Below are positions 3,501 to 27,827 of a stretch of 43,306 nucleotides of DNA, piece after piece. Origin of the DNA: a virus; IMG/VR virus record IMGVR_UViG_3300034198_002474, positions 1-43,306 of that record; one strand, given 5' to 3'. A model generated the notes under the pieces. It was given only the letters and a program-made list of their open reading frames with translations. It did not search any database and was not told the DNA's origin. Numbering within the stretch: the stretch's first letter is position 1; every line of letters starts with the position of its first letter. The translations under genes were made by a program, and so were the position numbers.

Positions 3501-6500
3501 TTATGCGCCTAAGCCTTTGATTTCGCCAGTGTTCTTCAAACGCAATGGAATGTAAATGAATTCAACTGCTTTGACTGGTTCGATAGCAACATCAAGGTAT
3601 AGTTCACTACGATCAATTCTGCTTGGTGTGTTGTTACTTGTGTCACATACAACCAAGAAGTCGTATAGGGCACGTTGTCCAACTAGTTCTAACAATAGGC
3701 TTTCTGCCGCTTGTTTGATTTCGTCACGTGTGATCTTGTCATTAGGTTCAAAGATGTATGGTTTTGCCAACTGAGCAAATTGTCTACGTAAGTAGATTAC
3801 CAAACGTGCTACGTTAATACGATCTAGTGCAGAAGCATTTCTTGCTCTTGTATACTGTCCGTAGTTAACTAGTCCTGTACCTGTAATGAAAGTCAATGGG
3901 TTAACTTTAACTTGTGCAAGTGTATCGCGCTGTCCTGTGTTTAGGGCAACTGACTGGAACTCACCTTCGCTAGTAATATAACCAACTGCACTTGCATTTG
4001 TAATACCGCCACGGCGTGTGCCAGCTGGAGCAAACCATGGATAAGAAACGTTATCACTTAGAGCAATTGTACGTAACATCATATGGCTTGGAGGAACAAC
4101 TACGTTGTTACCTAAGTTGTCACTGGTGTAACCCCATGGATAGAAGAATCCAAGATATTCGTCGCTAGTTACAAGACCTTTGTCGTTATCTTCTAATGCA
4201 CCGTTTTGATTAGTACCCCAGTTCAACAATGAAGTTGCATCTGGTTGTAAACGTGCAGGTGTATCAGCAACAACAAATGCTGTTAAACCACGATCGTAGT
4301 TTAAGTTAACCATTTCGCCAACTAGCTCAGGGTAACCTGGAGTTGCGATCAAGTTAAAAATACGTGATTCTTCATCACGGATTTGTTGGTTACTATTAAC
4401 CAATGCTTGTAGAGCCTGTACAACAACTTTACGCTGTGCTTTACGACCAAATGTACCTGAACCGTCTTCTTGGTTAGCGGCTTCGCTTAACCAACGGTGT
4501 GGGTAATAATCAGTCATATGCTCATCACCTTGACGATGATTTCTTGCTGTTGGATCAATGTAGTTTCTTACAAACTTCTTAACATTAAATCCTGAACGAC
4601 GTAGGTTCCATAGCAACATACCTTTTGGATATAGTGCAGGATCTGGTGCGTCTGGATCTAAGAAGTCGCTATCTAATAACTCGACTATAGTAGAAGATTC
4701 TGCAACCATTCCATCCATGTTCCAACGTGCATCATGGAACAATACACCTTCTTCAGTTGATTGATCGCTGTTGTCTACTAATGCCCACTTCTGTAAAGGG
4801 TAGTTGTACTTGTAGATCATTGGAAAGTTTTCTAAGTCGCTAGTATCAATCCATAGGTCACCGTTTGCAAGTGCTGTTGTGCCGTCTTGTTGTGTAGTTG
4901 GTGCAGTTGCACTTACAGTTGGGCCCATTGGATCTGTTGATCCGCTAGTATCACCTAATGTTTGGTCAAAGTTGTTATAACCAACCCATGTTGTACCATT
5001 GTGAATCATGATATCTACTTCGTCGATGACAGAGTTGTACCATAACTGGCCGTCTGCTGTTGTAGTAGTTGGAGCATCTCCACCGGCAGTATATGATAAT
5101 GGTTCCCAGTTGGATGCAATCATATATGCTGGACCATCTTGACTTGGGTCTTGGTACAAGTTAGTAGTAGTACCTGCAACAAATCCTGTATGAGATAACG
5201 GAGTACCTGTATCATCAAATAAACGAATGTCGCCGCCTGCTAAGTGTTGGATAACAACTTTACCGTTTGCAACTGATGCTTGTATATTTGATCCTTGACC
5301 AACTTGGATGTTGATTTGATCAGCCATTTTATCAGCGTCGGTATTATCGCCGTTACCAGTCCATGATATCACACTTTCACGCAAATCAGTAGATCCTGGG
5401 ACGCTTTCATTAATAGTAAATGAATATTCAGCATCCATTGTTAGACTAATGGTTCCGCTGGTAATGATTGTCTTACCTGCATACTTTCTACGGTATAGTT
5501 TAAAGTCTGCTTCAGGAGTATCCATTTCAGTATCATTAGTTTTAGCATACAATGTGCCTGCTGCCAAGTTGATACCGCCACCGCTTGAATCTAATCCAGC
5601 AAGTGCAGATTGTCCGTTTGGATATAGCTTTGTTGATAGTTCTTCCCATGCTCCTGTTGCGCTGTTGTAACGCTTGACCATTAGGCTTGCACCATGATTT
5701 GGTTCAGTTGTTTTAAACCATACAGAGCCAGTTGGACGAGGCATTTCATCATGTAATTTGAATTCAGGAACTACTGTGTGCTTAGAAATCTGTAGTTTTG
5801 GTGCATTGTATGTACCTGTTTTTACACCGATAACACTGGCACTAGCTGATACTGCTGTTAATGTACCTCCAATGTATACTTCATCAGTGACTGTTCCGTT
5901 TAGGTAAATTTCAAGGTGTCCATATGCATCTACACCTGCTGTAATGCCAGGAAACTCAGCGTTAATAATATTAGCCACTAGGTCACTAACGGAATCACCT
6001 TGAGCAAGAGTAATAGGAGGGCCAAATGTTGTTTGGTCATCTGGACCAAATGTTATTGCTTTACCAATATCTGCACCACCAACTCCTGTTGCTAGTGCTG
6101 GTACTTTTGATCCTTGAACTACCGGCCACGCTTTTGACCAATCAGCCGTTCCTACTTCAACCCATGATCCTGCACGATTTTTAAACCATAGTCTGTTGGT
6201 AGTTGTAGTTGCTACAATAGCATAATCGCCGATTGCGCCAACTGAACCTTTTGGTGCAGGAGGAACATCGTCTGTTACCTTGTTAGTAGCTGTAATAACA
6301 GTAGGATATTTAATGTTGAATGTTTGACCGCCAAGGGCTGCCGAAGCAGAGTTCCATTCAAAAATACCATACTTAGAACTGTCTGTGTCAAACCAGTGTG
6401 TTCCGTTTGTTGGAAGGCCTGCGGGTGCATCTGCTTTAGCATCTAACTGTGCTACATCTAGATCAGCACGTACAGCAAATACTCGATTGCTTACGCCTAA

Positions 6501-6803
6501 GTAGCTGTATGCGGCTTGTAAGCCATATTCGTTTTGTTCTCCAGCGTGTACTGGATTGTTGTTTGCATCAGTTTTAAATACAGGTGTACCAAAAGTGTCT
6601 GCTAAGTCTTTTTGGCTTGTTAATAAAAATACCTGACCAGCATTAGATTTTAGTGTGCCGCGAGCAATGCCAGTGCCTGCTCCGTTCTGTTTATTTTCTG
6701 CTGAAGCAACAATGATAAGGGGTGTTGTACCCGGGGCGGCAGGAGTGTAAAAACTTTCGTCGATAACTGTTACTGCTACGCCTGGTGAACTTAGTTGGGC
6801 CAT
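3501..6803 (-). CDS. gp18: Contractile tail sheath protein (gp18-like), enlarged
   Basis: 1100 aa, against 659 in T4. Residues 1-120 carry the sheath N-terminus (SSPGVAVTVIDESFYTPAAP). The C-terminal 400 residues are the conserved polymerising core: FFYPWGYTSDNLGNN, YPWFAPAGTRRGG, NPLTFITGTGLVNYGQ, ARLVIYLRRQFAQLAKPYIF and AVEFIYIPLRLKNTGEIKG. The middle (about 125-680) is a large beta-rich insertion with at least five short modules of the form G-x-(h)-W-(x)n-Y-(x)n-W (for example GTHWFDTDSS, GDLWIDTSDL, GQLWYNSV). These should project from the outer sheath surface. I recall shorter forms of this insertion in cyanophage sheaths. A late promoter motif lies 32 nt upstream and a GGAGA ribosome site precedes the ATG. 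Confidence 0.96.
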   Translation of the reverse strand: MAQLSSPGVAVTVIDESFYTPAAPGTTPLIIVASAENKQNGAGTGIARGTLKSNAGQVFLLTSQKDLADTFGTPVFKTDANNNPVHAGEQNEYGLQAAYSYLGVSNRVFAVRADLDVAQLDAKADAPAGLPTNGTHWFDTDSSKYGIFEWNSASAALGGQTFNIKYPTVITATNKVTDDVPPAPKGSVGAIGDYAIVATTTTNRLWFKNRAGSWVEVGTADWSKAWPVVQGSKVPALATGVGGADIGKAITFGPDDQTTFGPPITLAQGDSVSDLVANIINAEFPGITAGVDAYGHLEIYLNGTVTDEVYIGGTLTAVSASASVIGVKTGTYNAPKLQISKHTVVPEFKLHDEMPRPTGSVWFKTTEPNHGASLMVKRYNSATGAWEELSTKLYPNGQSALAGLDSSGGGINLAAGTLYAKTNDTEMDTPEADFKLYRRKYAGKTIITSGTISLTMDAEYSFTINESVPGSTDLRESVISWTGNGDNTDADKMADQINIQVGQGSNIQASVANGKVVIQHLAGGDIRLFDDTGTPLSHTGFVAGTTTNLYQDPSQDGPAYMIASNWEPLSYTAGGDAPTTTTADGQLWYNSVIDEVDIMIHNGTTWVGYNNFDQTLGDTSGSTDPMGPTVSATAPTTQQDGTTALANGDLWIDTSDLENFPMIYKYNYPLQKWALVDNSDQSTEEGVLFHDARWNMDGMVAESSTIVELLDSDFLDPDAPDPALYPKGMLLWNLRRSGFNVKKFVRNYIDPTARNHRQGDEHMTDYYPHRWLSEAANQEDGSGTFGRKAQRKVVVQALQALVNSNQQIRDEESRIFNLIATPGYPELVGEMVNLNYDRGLTAFVVADTPARLQPDATSLLNWGTNQNGALEDNDKGLVTSDEYLGFFYPWGYTSDNLGNNVVVPPSHMMLRTIALSDNVSYPWFAPAGTRRGGITNASAVGYITSEGEFQSVALNTGQRDTLAQVKVNPLTFITGTGLVNYGQYTRARNASALDRINVARLVIYLRRQFAQLAKPYIFEPNDKITRDEIKQAAESLLLELVGQRALYDFLVVCDTSNNTPSRIDRSELYLDVAIEPVKAVEFIYIPLRLKNTGEIKGLGA

Positions 6804-7847: not shown

Positions 7848-7869
7848 AGAGCCCCCTAAAAGTAACGCT

Positions 7870-7898
7870 AGTATATAACAGTTTTACCTTAAGGTCAA
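7870..7898 (-). promoter_or_regulatory. Sigma70-type early promoter for dNMP kinase, with palindrome in spacer
   Basis: On the minus strand, -35 TTGACC (7898-7893), a 17-nt spacer and -10 TATACT (7875-7870), with a start expected near 7863, 16 nt before the ATG. The spacer contains the perfect 10-bp palindrome ACCTTAAGGT (7886-7895), which could be an operator. Confidence 0.75.
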
Positions 7899-7915
7899 AT
7901 TATTTGTTAACCAAA

Positions 7916-9442
7916 TCATGCACCGCTAAGGCAACATCGATTTTTCCAAAGAAACTTTTTATCACCGGCATTTTTTGCCAGTTCCTTAGCTCTAGGTAAG
8001 GGCATTTGATCAGGGTATATTGTTCTGCAAACAAGCCTCACTTCTTCAGCATCAAACTTAATACCATTAAAAAACATAGCACGATCTGCTATGATTTTTA
8101 AAGTGATTAGGTAGCTGTCTATTTTAATAATATCTAATATTTGGCTGTTAACATATTCTAAATCAATGTCATCATTAATTCTAATATATATTTTTTCATA
8201 TTGTTTATCTACTACAATATCGTAATCTTCTGTATGCACTAGGTTTGTTACCTGAGTAATAACTTCAACTAGCAGATTAACATAAACAGGAACACCTCGT
8301 ATCCTGTATAGATTTTCACGACCGTTAAAAATATAGTTGCCATTTATAAGAGAAAACTTATCACCGGTAAGGACAGAAGACCCGTCTGGCATAATAACGC
8401 TTAACATGCCTTCGGGAGTTACAGATAACTGATAAAAATCGTCTAGTTGTTTACCAAAGTTGTCATGCTCGTATAGTGTGTAGTTTTCGGGGGTGATCCC
8501 AGGCAATAATAACGGCCCTGTTGTTTCGGTACAGCCAAATATTGAAAAAATACGGTAACCAAACTCTCCTACAACTCTTTCAATATTTGCAGGTTTAATT
8601 CTGTTTAGTACAAATATTGTCAAATCATCATGTTGTTTATTTTCAAGTGATGCTAGGGCAGTAAACTGATCTAACATAGTATAAAACATTAAGCAACGAT
8701 TTATTTTTTTACTCTGCACTAGGTCTACCCAGTTAACAGGACAGTCTGGCAAGTTATCGTGAAATCTAGCAAAATAGTGTGTAGAACAATACTTTATAGT
8801 AGGTAAAAAATAAACACCTGTAACACTACCGTGGTGTAGACCTTTAGTATGTAGGCATATATCTGATGTTTTTAAATCGTATAGTTTGGCATTTCTTTCT
8901 AAAAGATCATACAAAAACTTCTGTGTAGTAGGTATTACTTTAGGGGTATCAGTGGTTCCTGAACTAGTAGAATATATCATTATACTATCCGGTGTAGCCC
9001 ACATTACATCAGCACAGCTATCATCTGTGTAGGTACGTGTAATACTAAAATCTATTAAGTTATGTGAAAACGGTATTTCAGTTACTACTTCAGATTCGGG
9101 GTCGCCTATTACCTGTTGTATATCTCCATAAAGAGATAACTTATTTTCAACGGATTGCGATGAGTTAATAAAAGGATAATCTGATACAACAAATGACATG
9201 CCTAGTTCTGCAACAGCAATAAACCATATTACATAGCTGGGCCATGCACTGGCCGCTAATAAAACTTTTTGGCCAGGTCGTGCGTTGCGTTCTTTTATTA
9301 AGTATGTTTTGGCTCGATTTATTTGCTCAATAATCGTGGCATACGGTATATCAGAACTCAGGGTAGGATTTTTAGGATCAGTATCTGTAAAAACCCTAAT
9401 AACTAACTGCGGATTTAATATGCTTCTTGAGAGTAGTGTCAT
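7916..9442 (-). CDS. ANL-superfamily adenylate-forming enzyme (acyl-CoA synthetase / adenylation-domain-like)
   Basis: 508 aa, a normal length for acyl-CoA/acyl-AMP ligases, which activate a carboxylate with ATP and pass it to a thiol or other acceptor. Core motifs occur in order: A3 P-loop STSSGTTDTPK (158-168); A4-like HHGSVTGVYF (203-212); A5 IFGCTE (301-306); A7 LTGD (358-361); A8 GRENLYRIRG (374-383). The C-terminal subdomain (about 384-508) is present. I see no canonical A10 Pro-x4-Gly-Lys; PLPRAKELAK near 484-493 may replace it. The substrate cannot be read. It lies between an 84-aa protein and the dNMP kinase, among neck genes, which is unusual for a phage. No Shine-Dalgarno is seen; a 36-nt inverted repeat abuts the start. 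No sign of frameshift, so it is probably functional. Confidence 0.88.
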   Translation of the reverse strand: MTLLSRSILNPQLVIRVFTDTDPKNPTLSSDIPYATIIEQINRAKTYLIKERNARPGQKVLLAASAWPSYVIWFIAVAELGMSFVVSDYPFINSSQSVENKLSLYGDIQQVIGDPESEVVTEIPFSHNLIDFSITRTYTDDSCADVMWATPDSIMIYSTSSGTTDTPKVIPTTQKFLYDLLERNAKLYDLKTSDICLHTKGLHHGSVTGVYFLPTIKYCSTHYFARFHDNLPDCPVNWVDLVQSKKINRCLMFYTMLDQFTALASLENKQHDDLTIFVLNRIKPANIERVVGEFGYRIFSIFGCTETTGPLLLPGITPENYTLYEHDNFGKQLDDFYQLSVTPEGMLSVIMPDGSSVLTGDKFSLINGNYIFNGRENLYRIRGVPVYVNLLVEVITQVTNLVHTEDYDIVVDKQYEKIYIRINDDIDLEYVNSQILDIIKIDSYLITLKIIADRAMFFNGIKFDAEEVRLVCRTIYPDQMPLPRAKELAKNAGDKKFLWKNRCCLSGA

Positions 9443-9445
9443 TTG

Positions 9446-9481
9446 TAATCGAAAATATATAAACGTTATATATCTCGATTA
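9446..9481. repeat. Imperfect inverted repeat immediately upstream of the ANL gene
   Basis: Arms TAATCGAAAATATATAA (9446-9462) and TTATATATCTCGATTA (9466-9481) pair over 15 positions with a small bulge and a 3-nt loop. The repeat begins 3 nt upstream of the ANL ATG. It lacks a T-run, so an operator or a translation-control hairpin is more likely than a terminator. Confidence 0.6.
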
Positions 9482-9491
9482 CTGCTAACTA

Positions 9492-9746
9492 TTAAGATTT
9501 TTTAGCGGCTGCTTCTTGATCTAGTTTAGCAAAGATTTCTTTTACATTTGGAAGATCTTTGATTTCTTCTTTGATAGTCCAGATTTCTTTAGGACCTAGA
9601 TCTGCATAGTGGTTAGGAAAAAAGCAGTGCCAAACACTTTTAAGACTTAGTTTACCTAGACGAACTGCAAGTCCCCAGCTGTGTAACCAATGCTGCCAAT
9701 ATGTTAAATGATGATCTGCTAGATGATCTAATTTTTGTGTTGTCAT
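9492..9746 (-). CDS. Small protein, DUF6356-like, unknown function
   Basis: 84 aa. The N-terminal half is aromatic and His-rich (HHLTYWQHWLHSWGLAVR, about residues 12-29), followed by a hydrophobic or amphipathic segment KLSLKSVWHCFFPNHYAD (about 32-49). The C-terminal third is charged and helical. The pattern YWxH-(x)n-GL-(x)n-W-H-x-x-FP resembles small membrane-associated proteins of the DUF6356 type that I recall from cyanophages and proteobacteria; this is a tentative link. It starts 3 nt after the gp13-like stop, with an AGGAT ribosome site, and the ANL gene follows 49 nt downstream, so it is cotranscribed with at least the neck gene. No function proposed. Confidence 0.6.
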   Translation of the reverse strand: MTTQKLDHLADHHLTYWQHWLHSWGLAVRLGKLSLKSVWHCFFPNHYADLGPKEIWTIKEEIKDLPNVKEIFAKLDQEAAAKKS

Positions 9747-9749
9747 GTA

Positions 9750-10520
9750 TTATCCTATAATAAATGCATAACCTTGGTTGCCGCCGGCGATATAGGTTTC
9801 TAACTCTTTGTCTAACTTTTCAAGTTCGGCGGCACCGGCAGTTAATAATGCACTGCCATTTAGTTGAATAGCTTGGCCCGGTCCAGCAATGCTACCAAAC
9901 TTGCTACGTGCTTCACCTAGTATAAGTTTGCAAGTTGCTAGAGTATAATCTCTAAGCCATTGTTTGGCGTATATGTCAGTGAGCAACACAAAGTCTGGAC
10001 GGAAGTTATGGCATCGTATCAAAACTTGTTCGCCTTGGGCAAATGGGCGTTGTAAGATAGTAAGAGTATGGCTTTGTTGTTTCCATTTAAACTCAATATA
10101 GCTACCGAACATACGGCCAACTAGTTTCTGATAGCCTGCAAATAGTTCGTATGTTGCAAGCCCGCCCATCATAGTACTGTTAAGTAAATAGGTGTTTGTA
10201 TAGGCCAAGTTAAAGGGTTCAAATAGTGTTCCGCCGCCACCTAATCCGCTACGTGATCCAATGGATCTACGAAAAATACTTTGAACTTCAATAACTTCGT
10301 CGGGCAAACGATATTCGTTAGTATCTTGTATTAGCTCTAAAAACATGTAGCTTTCTTCTACAGCATTTGGACTGCGCTGACGATATCGTGTTAGTGCGCG
10401 ATCTAGTGCAGTTTCGTAATGAATGGGGTCTAGTTCAACCTCAACCATACCGTCTGCCAGCATAGTGCGCACGTAATCAAATACTTTATTGCGCTCAGTT
10501 AATGATGTAGATTCAGACAT
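9750..10520 (-). CDS. gp13: Neck / head-tail connector protein (gp13-like)
   Basis: 256 aa; T4 gp13 is 309 aa. Together with gp14 it seals the DNA-filled head and docks the tail. The sequence is helical at the start (RNKVFDYVRTMLADGMVEVE), then HYETALDRALTRYRQRS (about 35-51), a LPDEVIEVQSIFRRS segment (about 75-89), a beta-rich middle (GSYIEFKWKQQSHTLTILQR) and a helical C-terminus with ARSKFGSIAGPG and LNGSALLTAGAAELEKL (about 200-240). This plan matches a connector family I remember from T4-like cyanophages; the gp13 name rests mainly on its place next to gp14-like and gp15 genes. A GGAGAAC ribosome site and a late promoter motif precede it, and the 84-aa gene follows 3 nt after its stop. 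Confidence 0.62.
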   Translation of the reverse strand: MSESTSLTERNKVFDYVRTMLADGMVEVELDPIHYETALDRALTRYRQRSPNAVEESYMFLELIQDTNEYRLPDEVIEVQSIFRRSIGSRSGLGGGGTLFEPFNLAYTNTYLLNSTMMGGLATYELFAGYQKLVGRMFGSYIEFKWKQQSHTLTILQRPFAQGEQVLIRCHNFRPDFVLLTDIYAKQWLRDYTLATCKLILGEARSKFGSIAGPGQAIQLNGSALLTAGAAELEKLDKELETYIAGGNQGYAFIIG

Positions 10521-10561: not shown

Positions 10562-11938
10562 ATGCCACGATTATCCTTATACAAGCCCGAACGAGGGCAA
10601 GACTACAAGTTCATAGATCGCCAGATTTCTGAGATGTTTCAGGTTGGCGGAACAGACATATATCTGCACAAATATATAGGGGTCAATACAGACCTTGAAA
10701 ACTCTACCGCAGATCAGCCGCACTATGATACAACTAGTCCTACAAATATACAAGATTTGTTATTTTTAGAAAATCGAGATCGCAAGTACGATCCGTCTAT
10801 ATATCGAATCCGCGGGTTATACAATGTACAAAATATCGATTTCAATCTAAGTCAGTTTGGGTTGTTTATTGATAACGACACATTGTTTATGACGGTTCAT
10901 ATCAATGATTTTATCAAGTACATTGGCCGTAAACCCATTAGCGGAGATGTTATAGAACTGCCGCATTTGAAAGATCAGTTTGCACTAAATGAATATGATT
11001 TTGCATTGCCAAGATATTATGTTATTGAAGACGTGGGCCGTGCTAGCGAAGGATTTAGTGCCACTTGGTATCCGCACTTATACAGATTAAAACTCAAGAA
11101 GATTACCAATGCTCAACAGTTTGCTGATATTCTTAATCAACCAGCAACTGATGCTAACGGTGATCCAATACCTAATACTAAGATAGGTGACTTGTTAAGC
11201 ACTAGAGTTAAAGAACTTGAAATCAATCAAAGTGTGTTGACTCAAGCAGAACTTGATGCTCCGTTAAGCGGATATGAAACAAGGCACTTTTTTACACTGG
11301 CTGTAGATGAAAAGGGTAAAACTCTGCTACAAACTGTTGACGAAACAGACATAGATGCCAGTCTTACTAATGTAGGTGCTGGGGAAATCAATGATAGACC
11401 TCAGCGAGATGGCTACACTGGCTACTTAATAGGCGATGGTTATCCTCCTAATGGATTTGATTTTGGTCATGGCATTCAGTTTCCTCAAGTTGCTATGAAG
11501 AACGATTATTTCTTACGAACAGACATGTTCCCCAATAGGCTTTATAGATATGATGGAGTGCGTTGGGTCAAGTTAGAAGATGCAGTTCGCCATACAATGA
11601 CCAATACTGATCAACGTCAGACTCTAAAAACCAGCTTTATTAATAATAAAAATATCACAGGTACAGCAGTTATGGGAGAAGGCGTATATGTTCCTATTGC
11701 TGACTCTACTACTATACAAACAGATATACCGTTTACAGATGGCATGGGTGCAAAAACTATGATTGGTGATGTGGCTGTTACTTTAAGTACAGTGTCTAGT
11801 GGCGCTGGCGGCAATGCTCTAATAACTATGAATGCTACTGCTGCCTTGGGTAGTTCAGTTTCTTGGACTGTATATTCATCTTACTTTGAAGAACGTCAAA
11901 GTATTAGTAAAGCTCTTAAACCAAAGGCAGATTTATAA
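10562..11938 (+). CDS. gp14: Neck protein, gp14-like, with C-terminal extension
   Basis: 458 aa, much longer than T4 gp14 (256 aa). Residues 1-185 hold the conserved part: FIDRQISEMFQVGGTDIYLHKY, IQDLLFLENRDRKYDPSIYR, LSQFGLFIDNDTLFMTVHIN, and IEDVGRASEGFSATWYPHLY. That layout (binding of beta strands around an early IRG segment and a late WYPHLYRLKL strand) fits the gp14 connector. Residues 190-458 are an extension: a helical/linker part, then a beta region ending in the module FPNRLYRYDGVRWVKLED and a small Ig-like or jelly-roll end. The stop overlaps the gp15 start (TAATG), so the two are coupled. The alternative is a general virion structural protein. The gp14 name is moderate; virion neck role is likely from context. 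Confidence 0.58.
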   Translation: MPRLSLYKPERGQDYKFIDRQISEMFQVGGTDIYLHKYIGVNTDLENSTADQPHYDTTSPTNIQDLLFLENRDRKYDPSIYRIRGLYNVQNIDFNLSQFGLFIDNDTLFMTVHINDFIKYIGRKPISGDVIELPHLKDQFALNEYDFALPRYYVIEDVGRASEGFSATWYPHLYRLKLKKITNAQQFADILNQPATDANGDPIPNTKIGDLLSTRVKELEINQSVLTQAELDAPLSGYETRHFFTLAVDEKGKTLLQTVDETDIDASLTNVGAGEINDRPQRDGYTGYLIGDGYPPNGFDFGHGIQFPQVAMKNDYFLRTDMFPNRLYRYDGVRWVKLEDAVRHTMTNTDQRQTLKTSFINNKNITGTAVMGEGVYVPIADSTTIQTDIPFTDGMGAKTMIGDVAVTLSTVSSGAGGNALITMNATAALGSSVSWTVYSSYFEERQSISKALKPKADL

Positions 11939-13431
11939 TGTTACATTTCTATGACGGCCAGATCCGTAGATACCTGCTACAAACTATTCGAGTGTTTAGT
12001 AACTTTTCAGTAAAATATGCTGATGGTACACTGGTACAGATACCTGTTGTCTACGGCGATGCTGATAGACAAGCGGCGGCAATCATGCGTCAAAACAGTG
12101 AAAATGTCATCAACTCTGCACCACGTATTTCCATATACATTAGTGGCTTGTCTATGGATGTAAGTCGACTAAGCGATGCCAGTTATGTAGGTAAGATACA
12201 TGTGCGTGAACGTGATATTGATACAGAAACTGGCCACTACAACACTAACCAAGGCAATAACTATACTGTAGAAAGGCTAATGCCAACTCCTTTTACTCTA
12301 AGTATGAAAGTTGATATTTGGTCTGCTAACACTGATCAAAAACTACAGATTTTAGAACAGATTTTAGTATTGTTTAATCCAACGCTAGAGTTGCAAACAA
12401 CAGATAACTATGTTGATTGGACTAGTTTGAGTGTTTTAGAAATAAAAGATTTAACATGGAGTGGTAGAACTATACCTGTAGGCAATGACAGCCCAATAGA
12501 CATTGCTACCATCACACTATCAGCGCCTATATGGATTAATCCTCCCGTAAAAGTAAAACAAATGGGTATTATTACAGCTATTATTACCAGTATTAATAAT
12601 GGCTCTAATCCCCCTGATCCAACTAGTATTGACGGCTTAGGAGTTGATCCTTCATCTAGCGGTAATGGAACAACCAGCGGTGATGGAAGTGGTAACATGG
12701 GTGATGTACTCAGTACTGTAGATGTTGCTGTTGGCGGTTACGGTGTCCAAGTCTACGGCGGCCAAGCAAAGTTACTTAGTGTACATGAGGCGGTAGCGGC
12801 CAACGCACATGCTATTGGTATTGCTGAAAAACTCGGTGCTCCTATCAACTGGAGATCATTACTTGATCAGTATCCAGGCAAATATAGAGCAGGTTACAGT
12901 AAAATATATTTAAAACAACCTAATAAACACGAAGTATCTGGTACATTTAGTATTAACCCGCTTGACGAATCTTTAATAACAGTTAACTGGGATCAAGATA
13001 CATACCCAAGTAATACAGACTTGCATGCTAGCGGTCCTCGACCTAGTCCGGGAACATTTGATGCTATTATTGATCCTATGACCAAAGGTCCAGGACATGG
13101 CCTAGCATTACCCAGTGCCGGTACTAGATACCTTATTGTTGAAAACATTGGTGCTAGCGTAGCTTTAGGCGACCCAGTAACTAATGAAGACGGTCCTGAT
13201 GCATGGAAAAATAATGATGGCAGTGATTTTGTAGCCAAAGAAAATGATATTATTGAATGGCAGGGCGATCACTGGATTGTTATATTTGAAGCTATAACAA
13301 ATCAGAACCCCGCACATCCTATCTATCAAACTAATATATACACTGGAGTACAATACAAGTGGGATGGTCTTGCATGGACTAAATCATTTGAAGGTGAATA
13401 TAGAGAAGGATCATGGAGACTAAGGCTGTAA
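11938..13431 (+). CDS. gp15: Tail terminator / sheath stabiliser (gp15-like) with long C-terminal extension
   Basis: 497 aa against 272 in T4 gp15, which caps the tube and sheath and joins the tail to the neck. Residues 1-215 match the gp15 plan: an opening FYDGQIRRYLLQTIRVFSNF, a VQIPVVYGD strand, PRISIYISGLSMD, PTPFTLSMKVDIWSANTDQK and ILEQILVLFNPTLELQ, closing with WINPPVK, which parallels the WMYPPV motif of T4 gp15. A Gly/Ser/Asp linker (about 222-262) leads to a second region with AGTRYLIVENIG (about 395-406), NDIIEWQGDHWIV and a final GVQYKWDGLAWTK module. The Nudix gene overlaps its last 19 nt. The extension may decorate the neck; its function is unknown. Confidence 0.8.
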   Translation: MLHFYDGQIRRYLLQTIRVFSNFSVKYADGTLVQIPVVYGDADRQAAAIMRQNSENVINSAPRISIYISGLSMDVSRLSDASYVGKIHVRERDIDTETGHYNTNQGNNYTVERLMPTPFTLSMKVDIWSANTDQKLQILEQILVLFNPTLELQTTDNYVDWTSLSVLEIKDLTWSGRTIPVGNDSPIDIATITLSAPIWINPPVKVKQMGIITAIITSINNGSNPPDPTSIDGLGVDPSSSGNGTTSGDGSGNMGDVLSTVDVAVGGYGVQVYGGQAKLLSVHEAVAANAHAIGIAEKLGAPINWRSLLDQYPGKYRAGYSKIYLKQPNKHEVSGTFSINPLDESLITVNWDQDTYPSNTDLHASGPRPSPGTFDAIIDPMTKGPGHGLALPSAGTRYLIVENIGASVALGDPVTNEDGPDAWKNNDGSDFVAKENDIIEWQGDHWIVIFEAITNQNPAHPIYQTNIYTGVQYKWDGLAWTKSFEGEYREGSWRLRL

Positions 13432-20821: not shown

Positions 20822-20850
20822 TTGCATTTGCCCTTAAACTATGCTAAATT
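20822..20850 (+). promoter_or_regulatory. Possible extended -10 promoter for the HAD gene
   Basis: TTGCAT (20822-20827), 17-nt spacer, TAAATT (20845-20850) preceded by TG (20842-20843). The expected start near 20857 gives a short leader with AGGA before the ATG at 20874, which also argues against the upstream ATG at 20841. Confidence 0.4.
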
Positions 20851-20873
20851 ATAAAGCAAAAATAGGAAATAGC

Positions 20874-21512
20874 ATGAGTTTAAGAAAACTTTTAGAAGAA
20901 GACGGATTAAGTATTGAGCAGTTAAAAATGCAATCCTTGGCAGCACGGCCAAATATGTATGTAAAACCAGTTATTGGCATTACAAGGGACGGTGTTATTA
21001 ACTTTGCCAGAGCTGATCATGTTAAATCTCCTAGTGAACTTGAACCAGTACCCGGCGCTCTTGAAGCAGTTGCGCTGATGCGTAGTAAGGGCTACAGAAT
21101 AATACTGTTTTCCAACCAATACGGCATCGGCGAACGTAAACTAACTCAAGTAGATGTAGATGTAGTAAATCAACACTTGCTTAAACTATTAGGCGATGCA
21201 GGATGTCCTAGTATTGATGCCATGTACTATTCTACAACAAAACTTAAAGATGATATCTATGCATTGCCTAACATTGGCATGTTTCAACGTGCTGAAAAAG
21301 AAACTGGTGTTAGATTTAAAGATGGTTGGTTTGTTGGGGATAAAATTTCTGATATTAAAGGTGCTCAAAATATCAAAGCTAAACCTGTACTAATAATGAC
21401 AGGTGAAGGTGAAGAAACTGCTAAAAAGTTAGAAAGTTTTGCTAATCGAGATCTTAGAACAAAGGTAAAAGTTTTCCAAACATTACTAGAGTTTGCGGAA
21501 AGTTTAGAATAA
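20874..21512 (+). CDS. HAD-superfamily protein (GmhB/HisB-N-like), catalytically degenerate
   Basis: 212 aa from the ATG at 20874, chosen because AGGA lies 6 nt upstream; an ATG at 20841 would add 11 residues but has no ribosome site. The fold matches HAD-IIIA phosphatases such as GmhB (heptose-bisphosphate phosphatase). Motif II, IILFSNQYGIG (S80), and motif IV, FVGDKISD (D156, D160), are intact. Motif I should read DRDGVIN but reads TRDGVIN: the nucleophilic Asp is Thr37 while D39 remains. The usual CRKP Lys motif is also missing; the aligned stretch reads ALPNIGMF and the zinc cysteines are absent. It is therefore probably not a normal phosphatase: a binding protein or a re-purposed enzyme. 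The only plus-strand gene here, facing the carbamoyltransferase across a shared terminator. Confidence 0.82.
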   Translation: MSLRKLLEEDGLSIEQLKMQSLAARPNMYVKPVIGITRDGVINFARADHVKSPSELEPVPGALEAVALMRSKGYRIILFSNQYGIGERKLTQVDVDVVNQHLLKLLGDAGCPSIDAMYYSTTKLKDDIYALPNIGMFQRAEKETGVRFKDGWFVGDKISDIKGAQNIKAKPVLIMTGEGEETAKKLESFANRDLRTKVKVFQTLLEFAESLE

Positions 21513-21513
21513 T

Positions 21514-21540
21514 AAAAAAGCACCCTAGGGTGCTTTTTTT
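21514..21540. terminator. Bidirectional terminator between HAD and carbamoyltransferase genes
   Basis: Stem AAAAAAGCACC / GGTGCTTTTTT with CTAG loop, placed between the convergent stop codons. Its last base touches the carbamoyltransferase stop. Confidence 0.9.
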
Positions 21541-23330
21541 TAGTTTGCTACTTTGATCATTTTACCGTATTCTGGCAAGAACAAGTATTCAATCTCGCTT
21601 CTAGACAAAGTGCTAACAGCATCATCAAGTGTTTCAACTAGTGGATCTCCGCCTAGATTAAAACTGGTATTGAACACAATAGGGCATCCTGTTTTGCTGT
21701 GGAATGTTTTAATCAAATCATAATAGTGCTTATTTTGTGATTCATTAACAGTTTGAATACGACAAGTACCATCTACGTGAATAATACTAGGTATCTTTTC
21801 AGCAACACCTGGTTGACAGTTAACGGCATACATCATGGTAGGACTAGATTGCATACCACGCAAATCAAACCATTCGTGTACATGTTCTTCTAAAATACTG
21901 CCGGCAAATGGACGGAAGTATTCACGATGTTTGACACCGTTAACAAAGTCTTTACCATCTTCAAATCGTGGATCAAATAAGAATGATCTATTGCCTAGCG
22001 CACGTGGGCCGTTTTCACTACGACCTTGGAAGATAGCCACAATGTTTTTGTTAACTAGTAAATCTACAACCATTTCATTTGTAGCGTCTTCAATGGTTGC
22101 ACCGTATTGGTCAGCAGTTGCCTGTAACTGCTCGTTAGAATAGCAGTATGCTGGGCCTAGATACAGGGTTTCTGCTTGTAGTTTAATCGTTGAATCTTGT
22201 ACCAATGAACGATAGAACATCATTGCGGCACCCATTGCTGTGCCTGCATCGTTGCTTACTGGTTCAACATAAATCTCAATGCCTTCATCTTTTAATGCAT
22301 CGAGATAGTGATAGTTAGCAACACAGTTTAATCCATATCCGCCACTGATAACAACTTTATTATGTCCAGTGTCAGCCACTGCCTTTTTAATCAAACGCAC
22401 TACTTGTTCTTGCGTTTGTGTTTGGCAAGCATAGGCTAAGTCTCTACGATTTTGTAGTTTAGTCAAATCAGAACTTGATGCATCAGCTAAATCTTGATAT
22501 GCATGTTCGTTAACAATAGCACCGTTAGGGTATGTTGGAATAATCAAATGCCTATTTGATCCAGGATACATGCCTGAACTTTCAAACAACTCGGGTATGT
22601 TGGCATTTGGTTCGCCGTATGGGAATAGTCCCATGGTTTTACCTGCTTCGATAGGACTAAAGCCGCAATACTGTGTAACAGCTTCATATACTTTGGTAAT
22701 GCCAGCACGTTCGTCAATAAGAACTTCGTGTGTTCCTTGTTCCCCATAGAAACTACTATCAAACTCTTTCATGTAAACTGTAGGGCTTGGTCCACGTAAT
22801 CCAATGTGTTTGAATACTGTATTAAATGTAGCGGGATAAGCACAGTCGTATATTGACTCTACTTCCCAACCAATAACTGTTTCATTTGCAATGTTTAAGG
22901 GAATAAAAGTGCCAGCACCGTCAACAATAAGAGCCGCTGCCTTGTCAAAACCTGAGCGATAAAACGCACAAGCCGCATGCAACTTATGGTGGATATAGCT
23001 TAGGTCAATAACTTGCGGGTGCTGATAAGGATTTTCTGCTCTGCTGATAAGTCCTAGTTTCCTTGCAAGGCCAGTATAAACATCGTCACCTGTGTAGTCA
23101 ACTTTTCCAGCAGTTTCTTTAAGATTTTGTGTGTGTGCTATTACTAGATAGTCAATACGATCTGTATATTCTAAAATCTTGATCATTGCCGCATAAGGGC
23201 CGCCGTCATATTTTTGTCTAGATAATCTTTCTTCTTCAATACTAAAGACAATCTCGCCGTCCTTTAGTAAACACACACCAGAGTTATGACCGCGGGCAAT
23301 GGCCGCAATCCATACAGGTTTATTTTGCAT
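21540..23330 (-). CDS. O-carbamoyltransferase, NodU/CmcH/TobZ family
   Basis: 596 aa, full length for the family (TobZ about 570). These enzymes use ATP and carbamoyl phosphate to make carbamoyl-adenylate, then carbamoylate a hydroxyl on a sugar, antibiotic or other acceptor. The Kae1-like domain shows GHNSGVCLLKDG (14-25), the metal-binding HHKLH (H114, H118), DGAG (137-140), GGYGLNCVANYHYL and PVSNDAGTAMGAAM. The C-terminal domain shows GRSENGPRALGNRSFLFDPR, REYFRPFAGSIL and CPIVFNTSFNLGGDPLVET. All expected motifs look intact. Its ATG lies 11 nt inside the GT9-like gene, so the two are coupled. Phage members are known in marine T4-likes; some metavirome members carbamoylate 5-hydroxymethylcytosine in DNA, so acceptor could be DNA, nucleotide or glycan. 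Confidence 0.93.
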   Translation of the reverse strand: MQNKPVWIAAIARGHNSGVCLLKDGEIVFSIEEERLSRQKYDGGPYAAMIKILEYTDRIDYLVIAHTQNLKETAGKVDYTGDDVYTGLARKLGLISRAENPYQHPQVIDLSYIHHKLHAACAFYRSGFDKAAALIVDGAGTFIPLNIANETVIGWEVESIYDCAYPATFNTVFKHIGLRGPSPTVYMKEFDSSFYGEQGTHEVLIDERAGITKVYEAVTQYCGFSPIEAGKTMGLFPYGEPNANIPELFESSGMYPGSNRHLIIPTYPNGAIVNEHAYQDLADASSSDLTKLQNRRDLAYACQTQTQEQVVRLIKKAVADTGHNKVVISGGYGLNCVANYHYLDALKDEGIEIYVEPVSNDAGTAMGAAMMFYRSLVQDSTIKLQAETLYLGPAYCYSNEQLQATADQYGATIEDATNEMVVDLLVNKNIVAIFQGRSENGPRALGNRSFLFDPRFEDGKDFVNGVKHREYFRPFAGSILEEHVHEWFDLRGMQSSPTMMYAVNCQPGVAEKIPSIIHVDGTCRIQTVNESQNKHYYDLIKTFHSKTGCPIVFNTSFNLGGDPLVETLDDAVSTLSRSEIEYLFLPEYGKMIKVAN

Positions 23331-24414
23331 ACGCTATTTTTCCTTTATTTGCAATATTCATAACAGCACCAGGAGGTTGACTCATTGGTATTTGAACAGG
23401 AGGTTGGTGTTGCTCTGGCGGCACACCGCAACCTTGCATGGTATTTCCTGTTATTTTAGGTGCTAATATTTCCATTGGTTTAGTATAAAACTTTTGCATC
23501 AGTTTGTCAACCGATTGTACAACCACATCTTCAATTTTTTCGTTCATTATCATAATACCGTCGTTATTTCGATCAGTATGTTCATCGGGTGTAATACGTA
23601 TTGGGCTGTATTTTCTTACACCTTCACCCATGTCTAGTACATCAAACTTTTCATAATCAGGATATGAAATGTTTTCTGGGTAAGTAGATCCTGTGACCAC
23701 GGTAGCTGTTTTGTCCATAGCATAGGCAATATGTTGTCCCGCACTATCACAACCAATAAAGTGGTCGCTAGCGGCAATAATACCAGCCCATTGACGAAGA
23801 TTAACACCTGAAGGTTCTGCTACTGGGTCAGGACATCCTTCAGCTTGAAAGTTGATTTGTATTTCTGACATTAAAATAACTGCATAATCTTTTTGTAGTT
23901 TTTTAATAATGTTGACTAGATTTTTGTATTCAAAACTTCTTCCAGATGGATCATAGATGGCACTTTCGTTGGCCTGCATGCCTCGACCAAAAGGTTGAAA
24001 TACTATAATTTTTTCTTTACCTGTTCTTTCGCGTACATCTTTTACAGTTAGTTGTCCTTGGACAATTTCTTCAGTTGATAATCGTAATGTAGGTTTTGGT
24101 AGTTCACGAATACCTTGTCCATTGATCTCAATGTCAAATCCTTGGGCTAAGTTACATTTTTGATTATAGTATTCCCAAACCCTGTAGGGCTCTGGACTTT
24201 TGATGTCCATATTGAATAACTTATCTTGGAATAGATTTTTATGCCAAACATCGTATGCACGTTCGTGCAAAATAGGATGGCCTTTATACAGTTCCATACC
24301 GCCTTCACACACTATGATAAAATCTTTGTTTTGTTCGGCGTATTTTTCCAATGCAGGGATTGAGCACAATACTCGTCCGGCGCCACCGTTAATAAAAAAT
24401 GCAACTGGTCTCAT
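23320..24414 (-). CDS. GT9-like glycosyltransferase (heptosyltransferase-type)
   Basis: 364 aa, similar to LPS heptosyltransferases (about 350 aa), GT-B enzymes that transfer heptose or another sugar from a nucleotide donor. The N-terminal loop GGAGRVL (10-16) matches the GT9 glycine motif. The C-terminal donor site shows IIAASDHFIGCDSAGQHIAY (about 212-231) with D223-S-A-G-Q-H228, then VVTGSTYPENISYP, matching GT9's D-(S/T)-x-x-x-H and G-x-T-x-P pattern. IIVFQPFGRG (136-145) marks the domain junction. Residues about 320-364 are a Pro/Gln-rich tail. First gene of a two-gene unit after a terminator, with an exact TATAAATA late promoter 35 nt upstream and AAAGGA ribosome site. Late timing suggests virion or surface modification rather than early host takeover. 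Confidence 0.75.
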   Translation of the reverse strand: MRPVAFFINGGAGRVLCSIPALEKYAEQNKDFIIVCEGGMELYKGHPILHERAYDVWHKNLFQDKLFNMDIKSPEPYRVWEYYNQKCNLAQGFDIEINGQGIRELPKPTLRLSTEEIVQGQLTVKDVRERTGKEKIIVFQPFGRGMQANESAIYDPSGRSFEYKNLVNIIKKLQKDYAVILMSEIQINFQAEGCPDPVAEPSGVNLRQWAGIIAASDHFIGCDSAGQHIAYAMDKTATVVTGSTYPENISYPDYEKFDVLDMGEGVRKYSPIRITPDEHTDRNNDGIMIMNEKIEDVVVQSVDKLMQKFYTKPMEILAPKITGNTMQGCGVPPEQHQPPVQIPMSQPPGAVMNIANKGKIAYAK

Positions 24415-25217: not shown

Positions 25218-26006
25218 TTATTTGTATGTTATTCTAACCAATCCAGCCATACCAGGGAATCCACATGCACAACATCCTGCATTGGCATGTCCTGTTAATC
25301 CACCTAGTCCAGGTACATATTGTGATTTCATTTGCGCAAATCCAATGTAAGTACCTGCAATACATGTTTCAAAATCTTGGTAGTTATTACCACGTTTTCC
25401 GATCCACACAACTCCGCCACATTGATTAACTAGGCCACCTGGATAAGCTACTGCATACTTGTTATAGCATAGGTTATCACAACAAGTGTGCCATAGGCAA
25501 CCTCTAACACTTGGTATATTTATATCACCGCCGTAGGCCAGTGGAGCACTACAGGTACACATGGCAAAACAGCAACTTGGGAAACAGCAACTACAGCCGC
25601 CAAATCCGCCTTCTGCACAGAAGTTGCTAAGACCTGTTCCTGTAATATAAGTGCAGTTTCCTCTACATCCAACGGTGGTATTAGAACAGTTTGTTGACTG
25701 CGCCAACTGTATAGCATAACAGTTACCAGAACTAACAGCCAGAGTCTTTTTAGCATAAGAGCCTGAGCCACCCGGTGGGCCATATTGGCAGCAACACGAG
25801 CCAGCACCACCGCCACCGCCGCCCCATATTTCCATAGTTGCGTTGGTAACACCAGTAGGTACAATCCAAGCGTAACAGCAGTATTCTTGGTAGCTATCAA
25901 ACTGGCAAGTCCAGCAAGTAGCTTGCCACTGCATAATTCGCCCGTCGGGCAAACCTATACCAGTAGCGTTACCTGCGGTTGTCAGTAAACTTCGTAAATT
26001 TGACAT
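25218..26006 (-). CDS. Cys-rich, Gly-rich adhesin-like protein, copy 3
   Basis: 262 aa with 28 Cys (about 11%) and many CC and CCC clusters. Shared plan with the next two genes: MSNLRSLL start; a (W)xVPTGVT-x-(L/M)-x-(F/M)-E-x-W strand; poly-Gly GGGGGGAGSCCC; GGSGSYAKKTL; ITGTGLSNFCAEGG; GGLVNQCGGVVW; and the ending FPGMAGLVRITYK. The VP-GVT / poly-Gly / GYA frame is the Gly-rich domain seen at the tips of phage fibres (as in T-even gp38-type adhesins), but with cysteines replacing many loop residues. No signal peptide. Extensive disulfides after lysis or metal binding are possible. Last of three tandem paralogues, an AGGTAAAGA ribosome site 21 nt past the previous gene. Receptor-binding role is inference. 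Confidence 0.75.
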   Translation of the reverse strand: MSNLRSLLTTAGNATGIGLPDGRIMQWQATCWTCQFDSYQEYCCYAWIVPTGVTNATMEIWGGGGGGAGSCCCQYGPPGGSGSYAKKTLAVSSGNCYAIQLAQSTNCSNTTVGCRGNCTYITGTGLSNFCAEGGFGGCSCCFPSCCFAMCTCSAPLAYGGDINIPSVRGCLWHTCCDNLCYNKYAVAYPGGLVNQCGGVVWIGKRGNNYQDFETCIAGTYIGFAQMKSQYVPGLGGLTGHANAGCCACGFPGMAGLVRITYK

Positions 26007-26026
26007 GTTTATCTTTACCTATTATA

Positions 26027-26920
26027 TTATCTGTATGTCATTCGAACCATGCCGGCTGCGCCTGGGAATCCGTAACAACAACCACCACCACATGATGTAG
26101 CAGATGGAGCACCCATACCTGGTATAAAGTTACCGTCAGTGTCAACAGACCATCCAATAGTAGGAACACATTTTGTCCATTCGTTATTACATGCATCGCC
26201 TTGTACGCGAACCCAAGTTGTTCCGCCACATTGATTAACTAGGCCGCCTGGGAATTGTATTCCATATTTCCAATAGCAACTAGCACAAGAGCATTGTGAC
26301 CATAATAGACCTGGACGTCCTGGAGCGCCACCGTCAGCACCGTAATAACAAGCACAGTAGTTATATGCATCATAACATAGATATACATAACCAGTGTTGT
26401 TACCTGCGCAACTGTAGTTGCCCCAGAAAGTAAAGCAACATGATTTTCCGCTACAACCACCAGTAGCACAGAAGTTGTTTAGTCCCGAGCCTGTTATCCA
26501 AGAGTTACATCCAACAATTCCGCAACAAGTAACTGCACAGTCTGTAGTACTGGCTGCTTGAATGGTATAACATTGGCAAGAATTGTATGTAAAGTTACAG
26601 GCCGCTGTAGTAAGTGTTTTATAAGCATAAGCGCCGGCGCCGCCTGGTTGGCCTTGCATACAGCAACATCCACCAGCACCGCCACCACCGCCACCCCATA
26701 TTTCAAAAGTTATACAGCATACACCCTTTGGTACACACCAGTTAGCAAGACAGTTATGGCAATAGTTTGTATCCACAGTATATTGACACCAACTAACCAT
26801 TGTCTGTTGACAACCTTGAGCTCCAGGTGTTCCTGTAGCATAATAGCTACTATTTGAGTAACTAGTTGCTGTGTTAAACTTGCTGGAGCCTGTGTATAAT
26901 AATGATTTTATATTTGACAT
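26027..26920 (-). CDS. Cys-rich, Gly-rich adhesin-like protein, copy 2
   Basis: 297 aa with 34 Cys (11.4%), the highest of the three. It has MSNIKSLL at the start, VPKGVCCITFEIWGGGGGGA, GGCCCMQGQPGGAGAYAYK, ITGSGLNNFCATGG, PGGLVNQCGGTTW and a FPGAAGMVRMTYR end. Tyr and Asn are also abundant (YNYCACYYG). Compared with copy 3 it carries extra sequence in the first 60 residues and in the middle Cys loops, while the Gly frame is kept, so loops diverge and scaffold is conserved. It starts one base after the stop of copy 1, with GGAGC inside that gene's last codons. No homologue with known function comes to mind. Confidence 0.75.
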   Translation of the reverse strand: MSNIKSLLYTGSSKFNTATSYSNSSYYATGTPGAQGCQQTMVSWCQYTVDTNYCHNCLANWCVPKGVCCITFEIWGGGGGGAGGCCCMQGQPGGAGAYAYKTLTTAACNFTYNSCQCYTIQAASTTDCAVTCCGIVGCNSWITGSGLNNFCATGGCSGKSCCFTFWGNYSCAGNNTGYVYLCYDAYNYCACYYGADGGAPGRPGLLWSQCSCASCYWKYGIQFPGGLVNQCGGTTWVRVQGDACNNEWTKCVPTIGWSVDTDGNFIPGMGAPSATSCGGGCCYGFPGAAGMVRMTYR

Positions 26921-26921
26921 T

Positions 26922-27827
26922 TTAGCTCCATGAGATTCTAATCATTCCAGGGCCGCCTGGTGCACCGCAATAACAGTTACCACCAAACGCTGTGGCACCA
27001 AATCCGCCTTGACCAACTGTTCTTGCATACGTGCCGCCAGTAAATCCTTGTCCTGTTCTACAACTTTCGTATTCGCCTGTTGTATTAACACCGGCTGCTC
27101 TTATATATTGGAATGCACAGCCGTCTGTAGTTTGATTTGAACCATAAGGAATAACGCCTCTATATCCGCAAGTATTAGCTTGACAGTTTTCAGTGTACCA
27201 ATATGACCATGTGCCCGGGACACCATAGTCTGATCCAAAATAACATGCACACGAGAAGCTAGCACCGCTTGGGCCACCATAACAGCAATTAGGGAAAGTA
27301 CCGCATCCATTAACCATGGCACTGTAACAAGAGTCTGCACAATAACAGCAGTTAAACCAGAAACAACTTGTGTAGCCTGGCAATCCGCCTTCTGCACAAA
27401 AGTTAGTAAGTCCGTAGCCAGTTACCCAAGATTGGCATCCCCTGTAACCGCAACTAAATGCTGGGCTACAGCATCCGTAGTACCCAGCAAATAAAATATA
27501 ACAACAGTTGCCTAGTGCCCCTGTTACTGTTTTACGAGCATAAGCACCTGATCCTCCAGACCAGCCCCATTCGCAACAGCAAGCACCTGCGCCGCCGCCA
27601 CCTGCACCCCATGCTTCAAATGTAAGTCTAGTAACACCAGTAGGTACTACCCAGCAACAGTGTGTATTTCTGCAGTAGTTTGTGTCTTGTGCGCCAGCGC
27701 CTGAGCATAGGCCAACAAACACTAACTCGCTACCAGTTTTTAACCTTGACAACGGTGACGTGCGATTGGTTAAATCTGGACTTGTTCCGTCGCCGTATGC
27801 AGGTAGTAAGCTTCTTAAGTTTGACAT
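26922..27827 (-). CDS. Cys-rich, Gly-rich adhesin-like protein, copy 1
   Basis: 301 aa with 30 Cys (10%). Plan as in the other copies: MSNLRSLLPAYGDG, CCWVVPTGVTRLTFEAWGAG, a CCC followed by GGSGAYARKTV, VTGYGLTNFCAEGG and APGGPGMIRISWS. It alone has a long N-terminal segment with no Cys (residues 9-40) and a longer Gly-rich end (RTVGQGGFGATAFGG). It begins 3 nt after the stop of the 107-aa gene and lies first of the three paralogues, downstream of the giant fibres. Cells keep cytoplasmic cysteines reduced, so disulfides would form only outside the cell, fitting a virion tip exposed to the medium; this is inference. Confidence 0.75.
   Translation of the reverse strand: MSNLRSLLPAYGDGTSPDLTNRTSPLSRLKTGSELVFVGLCSGAGAQDTNYCRNTHCCWVVPTGVTRLTFEAWGAGGGGAGACCCEWGWSGGSGAYARKTVTGALGNCCYILFAGYYGCCSPAFSCGYRGCQSWVTGYGLTNFCAEGGLPGYTSCFWFNCCYCADSCYSAMVNGCGTFPNCCYGGPSGASFSCACYFGSDYGVPGTWSYWYTENCQANTCGYRGVIPYGSNQTTDGCAFQYIRAAGVNTTGEYESCRTGQGFTGGTYARTVGQGGFGATAFGGNCYCGAPGGPGMIRISWS

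Follow-up and report, generated by a model that had tools for sequence, protein, structure and literature searches.

An ANL adenylate-forming enzyme paired with a small DUF6356 protein forms a candidate two-gene cassette in the neck/tail block of a T4-like phage

Why would a T4-like phage carry an adenylate-forming enzyme amid the genes for its neck and tail? The question is raised by the window, i.e. a 43-kb IMG/VR virus record over its entire length, in which the original prediction described an intact enzyme of the ANL superfamily within a T4-like neck/tail block. The surroundings of the gene are as described: a head-tail adaptor, a dNMP kinase, a tail sheath and a sheath stabiliser are encoded around it, and the sheath has its closest counterparts in Sinorhizobium phage Phosso and Agrobacterium phage Atu_ph07 (42-44% identity). 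Overlooked at that stage were a small DUF6356 gene next to the ANL gene at 9492-9746 and an A10-like NGIK motif in the enzyme. The features of the locus are:

3501-6803, tail sheath, 1,100 aa
7158-7847, dNMP kinase
7848..7915, no strand given, right edge of the candidate cassette (TTTGGTTAACAAATAATTTGACC), matching the junction of adaptor stop and dNMP kinase promoter in cassette-free relatives
7916..9442, minus strand, ANL adenylate-forming enzyme, member of the phage ANL family (Pfam, family alignment, AlphaFold2, Foldseek)
9443..9491, minus strand, intergenic hairpin (-17.3 kcal/mol, z -4.0), which ends 3 bases before the ANL start codon
9492..9746, minus strand, DUF6356-like protein of 84 aa, partner of the ANL enzyme (Pfam PF19883, alignment, adjacency, AlphaFold2)
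9747..9749, no strand given, left edge of the candidate cassette, at the adaptor stop (comparison with relatives)
9750-10520, head-tail adaptor (phrog_211)
11938-13431, sheath stabiliser, gp15-like

The ORF at 7916-9442 encodes 508 aa from an ATG start in an unbroken frame and matched Pfam AMP-binding (PF00501) with E=5.9e-15 and 55.4 bits, exceeding the cut-off of 29.9; a weak Pfam GH3 match lay across its A3 region. The five core motifs that had been read from the translation were all located in the reported order, i.e. TSSGTTDTPK (A3, 159-168), HHGS (A4, 203-206), FGCTE (A5, 302-306), TGD (A7, 359-361) and GRENLYRIRG (A8, 374-383), and NGIK at 459-462 provides an A10-like motif. The key residues of the enzyme are:

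S161, G162, T164 and K168 (A3); H204 and S206 (A4); G303, E306 and T307 (A5)
D361 (A7); G374 and R375 (A8); K462 (A10)

In a 36-row alignment of the family, A76, S161, G162, T164, K168, N184, H204, S206, P214, I282, S300, G303, T307, P310, D361, G374, Y419 and K462 (window numbering) are invariant and E306 and R375 are nearly so; the window ANL keeps all ATP-site residues. The original prediction held that the A10 lysine is not evident and that the enzyme may, therefore, catalyse adenylation only. Profile comparison with EntE and MenE by hhalign did not extend beyond the N-terminal half, and the A10 question was, therefore, decided by multiple alignment. In three MAFFT modes, K462 aligned with K437 of E. 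coli MenE, K520 of EntE and K543 of FadD; in this region, MenE reads GGIK and the phage ANLs G[IV]K. Because the A10 lysine is present, the adenylation-only idea loses its basis. We conclude that the window ANL, as judged from its aligned sequence, keeps every residue for the two-step ANL cycle, the A10 lysine included.

An AlphaFold2 model of the window ANL with 36 family members as input reached a pLDDT of 79.6, and a Foldseek search of this model against the PDB returned exclusively ANL enzymes as top matches (best E 2.7e-22), among them McyG A-PCP, a keto-acid A-domain, fatty-acyl-AMP ligases, CytC1, THR1 and MenE, with an identity to solved structures of about 12-17% only. We consider it almost certain that 7916-9442 encodes an ANL enzyme. 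Within the superfamily, no curated NCBIfam subfamily model was matched at its cut-off, the best being amino-acid adenylation with 49.7 bits against a cut-off of 317.4, and the acyl-CoA ligase models giving at most 27.9 bits against 748. Neither the ANL enzyme nor the DUF6356 protein matched a PHROGs family at E<=0.01.

As to the substrate, amino-acid A-domains have an Asp at A4, which binds the alpha-amino group. H204 of the window ANL instead lines up with the A4 His residue of both MenE and FadD in each of the three MAFFT modes and with that of EntE in two of them; with a His rather than an Asp at A4, an alpha-amino acid is therefore an unlikely substrate, and the enzyme probably acts on some other carboxylic acid. 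The window ANL does not qualify as an NRPS A-domain, having His204 at A4 and no carrier domain, and no recurrent carrier-protein gene was seen near family ANLs in the neighbourhoods examined.

The rarity of such enzymes in phages, which was part of the original prediction, is borne out by a tblastn search: neither 50,697 phage records nor 72,556 plasmids contained a relative of the window ANL. Queries with one DUF6356 protein and with four members of the family likewise found nothing among these annotated phages. The control query, E. coli FadD, matched 92 of the phage records and, among the matches listed, mostly found host-like ligases in records resembling bacterial fragments. Relatives were recovered by motif scans of IMG/VR. 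Three viral contigs, each with a full-length relative of 28% identity, matched a degenerate DNA pattern for GTTDTPKV; the pattern IFGxxET[ST]GP gave 41 viral contigs, of which 36 encode a member of the phage ANL family, and CTSSGTTxTPK gave 45 viral contigs; an alignment-driven scan chose poor patterns and brought no gain. Altogether, the family comprises about 60 loci with more than 40 distinct proteins. Among bacterial and archaeal genomes totalling 257 Gb, CTSSGTTxTPK occurred in three contigs, none of which encodes a family member (two without a family match, one with a weak generic match of 17 bits). The family profile matched all of the 46 carriers and had no match at E<=1e-15 in 200 Pseudomonadota genomes. 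The close relatives lie on phage contigs and are not host contaminants. Only 6/46 carriers matched the terminase model phrog_2, which is thus a poor phage marker on these fragments.

The window ANL itself scored 427 bits against the family profile, with the window among the training rows of that profile, and 102 bits against L165 in plain phmmer; no close relative was found in IMG/VR, GTDB genomes, cultured phages or plasmids. In the tree, it is placed with moderate support next to L177 and L180, on a branch as long as 2.96 changes per site, and given this branch its specificity may have drifted. In the records G078, G084 and G086 (L230, L231, L248 and L249), two or three ANL copies lie within about 20 kb, and the second of these ends around position 373-389 of the profile, seemingly without the A10 part.

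Clustering of neighbouring ORFs revealed one constant companion of the ANL gene, a protein of ~80 aa of the DUF6356 type. With strict ORF calling, it is directly adjacent to ANL in at least 39 of the 60 loci and lies within 2.2 kb in three more; it went undetected in up to 18/60, with some of these absences reflecting misses of the ORF picker (at least L214) or nearby contig ends. Usually, the DUF6356 gene is downstream of ANL with overlapping or touching ends, while it is upstream in L173, L218, L221, L228 and the window, here by about 50 bp. The reverse search is a stronger test of the pairing than this forward count: when IMG/VR was searched with DUF6356 alone, 8/8 phage loci had an ANL gene directly upstream, some of these ANLs being distant (E 6e-14 to 6e-41) and two of the eight contigs being already known. 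Based on these data, the two proteins very probably form a functional pair.

The window copy matched PF19883 just below the gathering cut-off (E 3.9e-5; 24.1 bits against 24.4), and two other phage partners matched with E 2e-13 and 3e-17. H8, H19, S37, H40 and P44 are invariant in 27 phage members, the window copy included. The AlphaFold2 model of the window protein is all-helical (pLDDT 84.6) and had no match in a fold search against the PDB. In most DUF6356 members, one segment is hydrophobic to a degree that is borderline for a transmembrane stretch; hydrophobicity is lowest in the window copy (Kyte-Doolittle 0.77 compared to about 1.3-2.2 in others) and, because this copy is also just below the Pfam cut-off, the case for a membrane role is weakest in the window.

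How did the pair come to lie in a neck/tail block? In most related IMG/VR loci carrying both the adaptor and the dNMP kinase gene, these are separated by 53-75 bp, while other relatives have 0.2-8 kb of cargo in this gap, including tail-fibre-like genes, genes for putative 2OG oxygenases and genes for proteins starting with MKVxEI..E. The junction (7848-9749 in the window; L002-L160) is a cargo hotspot, empty (~60 bp) in most relatives and filled with different genes in the others. Many small cargo proteins begin with MKVxEI..E or MKSFKEYLAE (L081, L082, L083, L104, L108 and others, as well as 2-472 in the window); these starts presumably resemble the T4 capsid-targeting sequence, and the proteins may represent internal proteins that are packaged. 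In the window, DUF6356 plus ANL make up the cargo, and neither AMP-binding nor DUF6356 was found in the 50 related records searched. We read the two genes as an accessory cassette inserted at this junction of a large T4-like phage. No Shine-Dalgarno sequence was seen for ANL, whereas most neighbouring genes have a GGAG-type site, and translational control by the hairpin before the start codon is possible.

Elsewhere, the pair occupies other sites. In L239, with a tail block as in the window, it lies between a conserved gene for a 157-aa protein and a CTS-like gene; in L232, a 300-kb phage, between gp47- and gp46-like genes; in L240, beside SPASM and sulfotransferase-like genes; and in L234, beside an amidinotransferase gene. 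Genes of the amidinotransferase, aspartyl-hydroxylase-like, SPASM, sulfotransferase-like or halogenase type recur as neighbours, the amidinotransferase, sulfotransferase and gp46/gp47 labels being in part by-eye readings of the sequence rather than curated matches. In L198, L203 and L190, a tryptophan-halogenase homologue directly follows ANL-DUF6356 (Pfam E 1.7e-59 in L198). Because the neck/tail position is one of several insertion sites, we do not infer that the pair is a structural part of the neck or tail.

The window also contains genes for a HAD phosphatase, a carbamoyltransferase and a weakly GT9-like protein (20841-24414). The original prediction suggested that the carbamoyltransferase may join the ANL enzyme in a modification pathway; this is not supported by the distribution of the two genes, with a carbamoyltransferase in 10 of 46 ANL carriers versus 20 of 50 ANL-less relatives. 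At 25218-27827, beside tail-fibre-like genes, a row of three similar proteins is encoded whose composition is unusual (10-11% Cys, 16-19% Gly).

What could the pair do? Our best reading, to which we give nearly even chances, is a portable module of two genes for acyl activation, in which DUF6356 would be the membrane-side partner. In this scheme, the ANL enzyme would bind ATP and a carboxylic acid other than an alpha-amino acid and would form an acyl-AMP, from which the acyl group would be passed to a thiol (CoA or a host carrier protein) or straight to an acceptor. The short helical DUF6356 protein with its invariant histidines might bring this chemistry to the membrane as an anchor, acceptor or transferase and, as a result, an envelope lipid, a glycan or a membrane protein of the infected cell would be acylated. 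A target in the membrane or envelope is conceivable and somewhat short of an even prospect. The boldest version, rather unlikely as it stands, is that ANL and DUF6356 constitute an unrecognised portable phage module for acylation of an envelope component of the infected cell, in which DUF6356 would represent a novel kind of acyl acceptor or transferase bound to the membrane.

Other explanations were weighed against this reading. The ANL-activated acid could be joined to a glycan or side chain of structural proteins, such that the pair would belong to larger islands for decoration of the virion or tail fibres. Many carriers indeed have amidinotransferase, 2OG oxygenase, aminotransferase, epimerase, radical SAM/SPASM, sulfotransferase-like or halogenase genes in the vicinity, and a tail-fibre-like gene often adjoins these; however, none of these partners is constant while DUF6356 is, the cassettes in the window and L232 have no such genes adjacent, and the carbamoyltransferase is not associated with ANL. 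We regard decoration as unlikely. The same holds for fatty-acid salvage, in which the ANL enzyme would simply be an acyl-CoA or acyl-ACP synthetase supplying the lipid metabolism of the host during infection, with DUF6356 aiding uptake at the membrane: the A4 His and the overall motif set are as in FadD and MenE and the fold resembles fatty-acyl-AMP ligases, but acyl carrier, beta-oxidation or fatty-acid genes do not recur nearby and the closest sequence models score far under their curated cut-offs.

A pair for superinfection exclusion or counter-defence, with the small membrane protein acting as effector after modification or activation by the ANL enzyme, would suit a portable, self-contained cassette of a small hydrophobic protein and an enzyme in different phages; PADLOC, however, gave no match to a known defence system, and we hold this explanation to be very unlikely. 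That the ANL gene stems from contamination with host DNA, or was captured from a host and is now decaying without a phage function, is barely credible. The GC content of the cassette genes (0.35 and 0.36) is below that of the flanking genes (0.42-0.43) and the branch is long, as might be expected for such a gene, but the catalytic set is intact, a phage family with the same partner is present in many contigs, and the insertion between conserved phage genes is almost precise. A host contaminant is largely ruled out by this insertion between phage genes together with the relatives on phage contigs.

If the acyl-activation module exists as proposed, envelope acylation could, for example, exclude other phages or reshape the membrane. 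Because the pair is small, intact and present in many phages and gene contexts, it is directly testable. Through the analysis, a family of phage ANL enzymes is defined that has a small protein as its fixed partner, and the pairing provides a first functional lead for DUF6356, which has one mention in the open literature searched. Neither the phage ANL family nor its pairing with DUF6356 was found in that literature; by term search, acyl-CoA, AMP-ligase and NRPS enzymes are unmentioned in a survey of 224 jumbo phages (PMC7824862).

Among known systems, DUF6356 proteins (PF19883) of Alphaproteobacteria, present in 11 of 58 genomes, have the ETYxxH...HxxxP pattern in common with the phage partners, but in the bacterial loci examined no ANL gene is adjacent and one lies within 5 kb in only 2/8; these neighbourhoods gave no clear functional lead. 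In three of 12 loci (L250, L255 and L256), bacterial DUF6356 adjoins, by eye, Lrp/AsnC-like regulator genes, possibly a clue to its role there. On the viral side, the BFVD entry A0A6J5L571 from an uncultured Caudovirales phage, named 'AMP-dependent synthetase/ligase', matched the modelled fold with a Foldseek E of 1.1e-31 (26% identity over 460 columns) and is probably a member of the phage ANL family under an automatic name. EntE (2,3-dihydroxybenzoate-AMP ligase) is the better of two E. coli ANLs by profile (E 1.6e-9) and the top PDB sequence match of the phage ANL; it differs in the A4 motif, and the phage side lacks genes for a carrier protein or for siderophores. E. coli MenE (o-succinylbenzoate-CoA ligase) is alike in A10, GGIK(437), and in the A4 His, whereas its profile alignment is weak and confined to the N-terminal part and no menaquinone genes lie near the phage ANL. 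With the ANL superfamily (PF00501; NRPS A-domains, aryl/acyl-CoA ligases and firefly luciferase) as a whole, the phage enzymes share the fold of both domains, motifs A3, A4, A5, A7 and A8 and the A10 lysine, but they have CTSSGTTxTPK, HGSS and IFGxxETSGP motifs of their own. The class of chemistry is known; what seems new, as judged from the literature searched, is the phage ANL family with DUF6356 as its partner.
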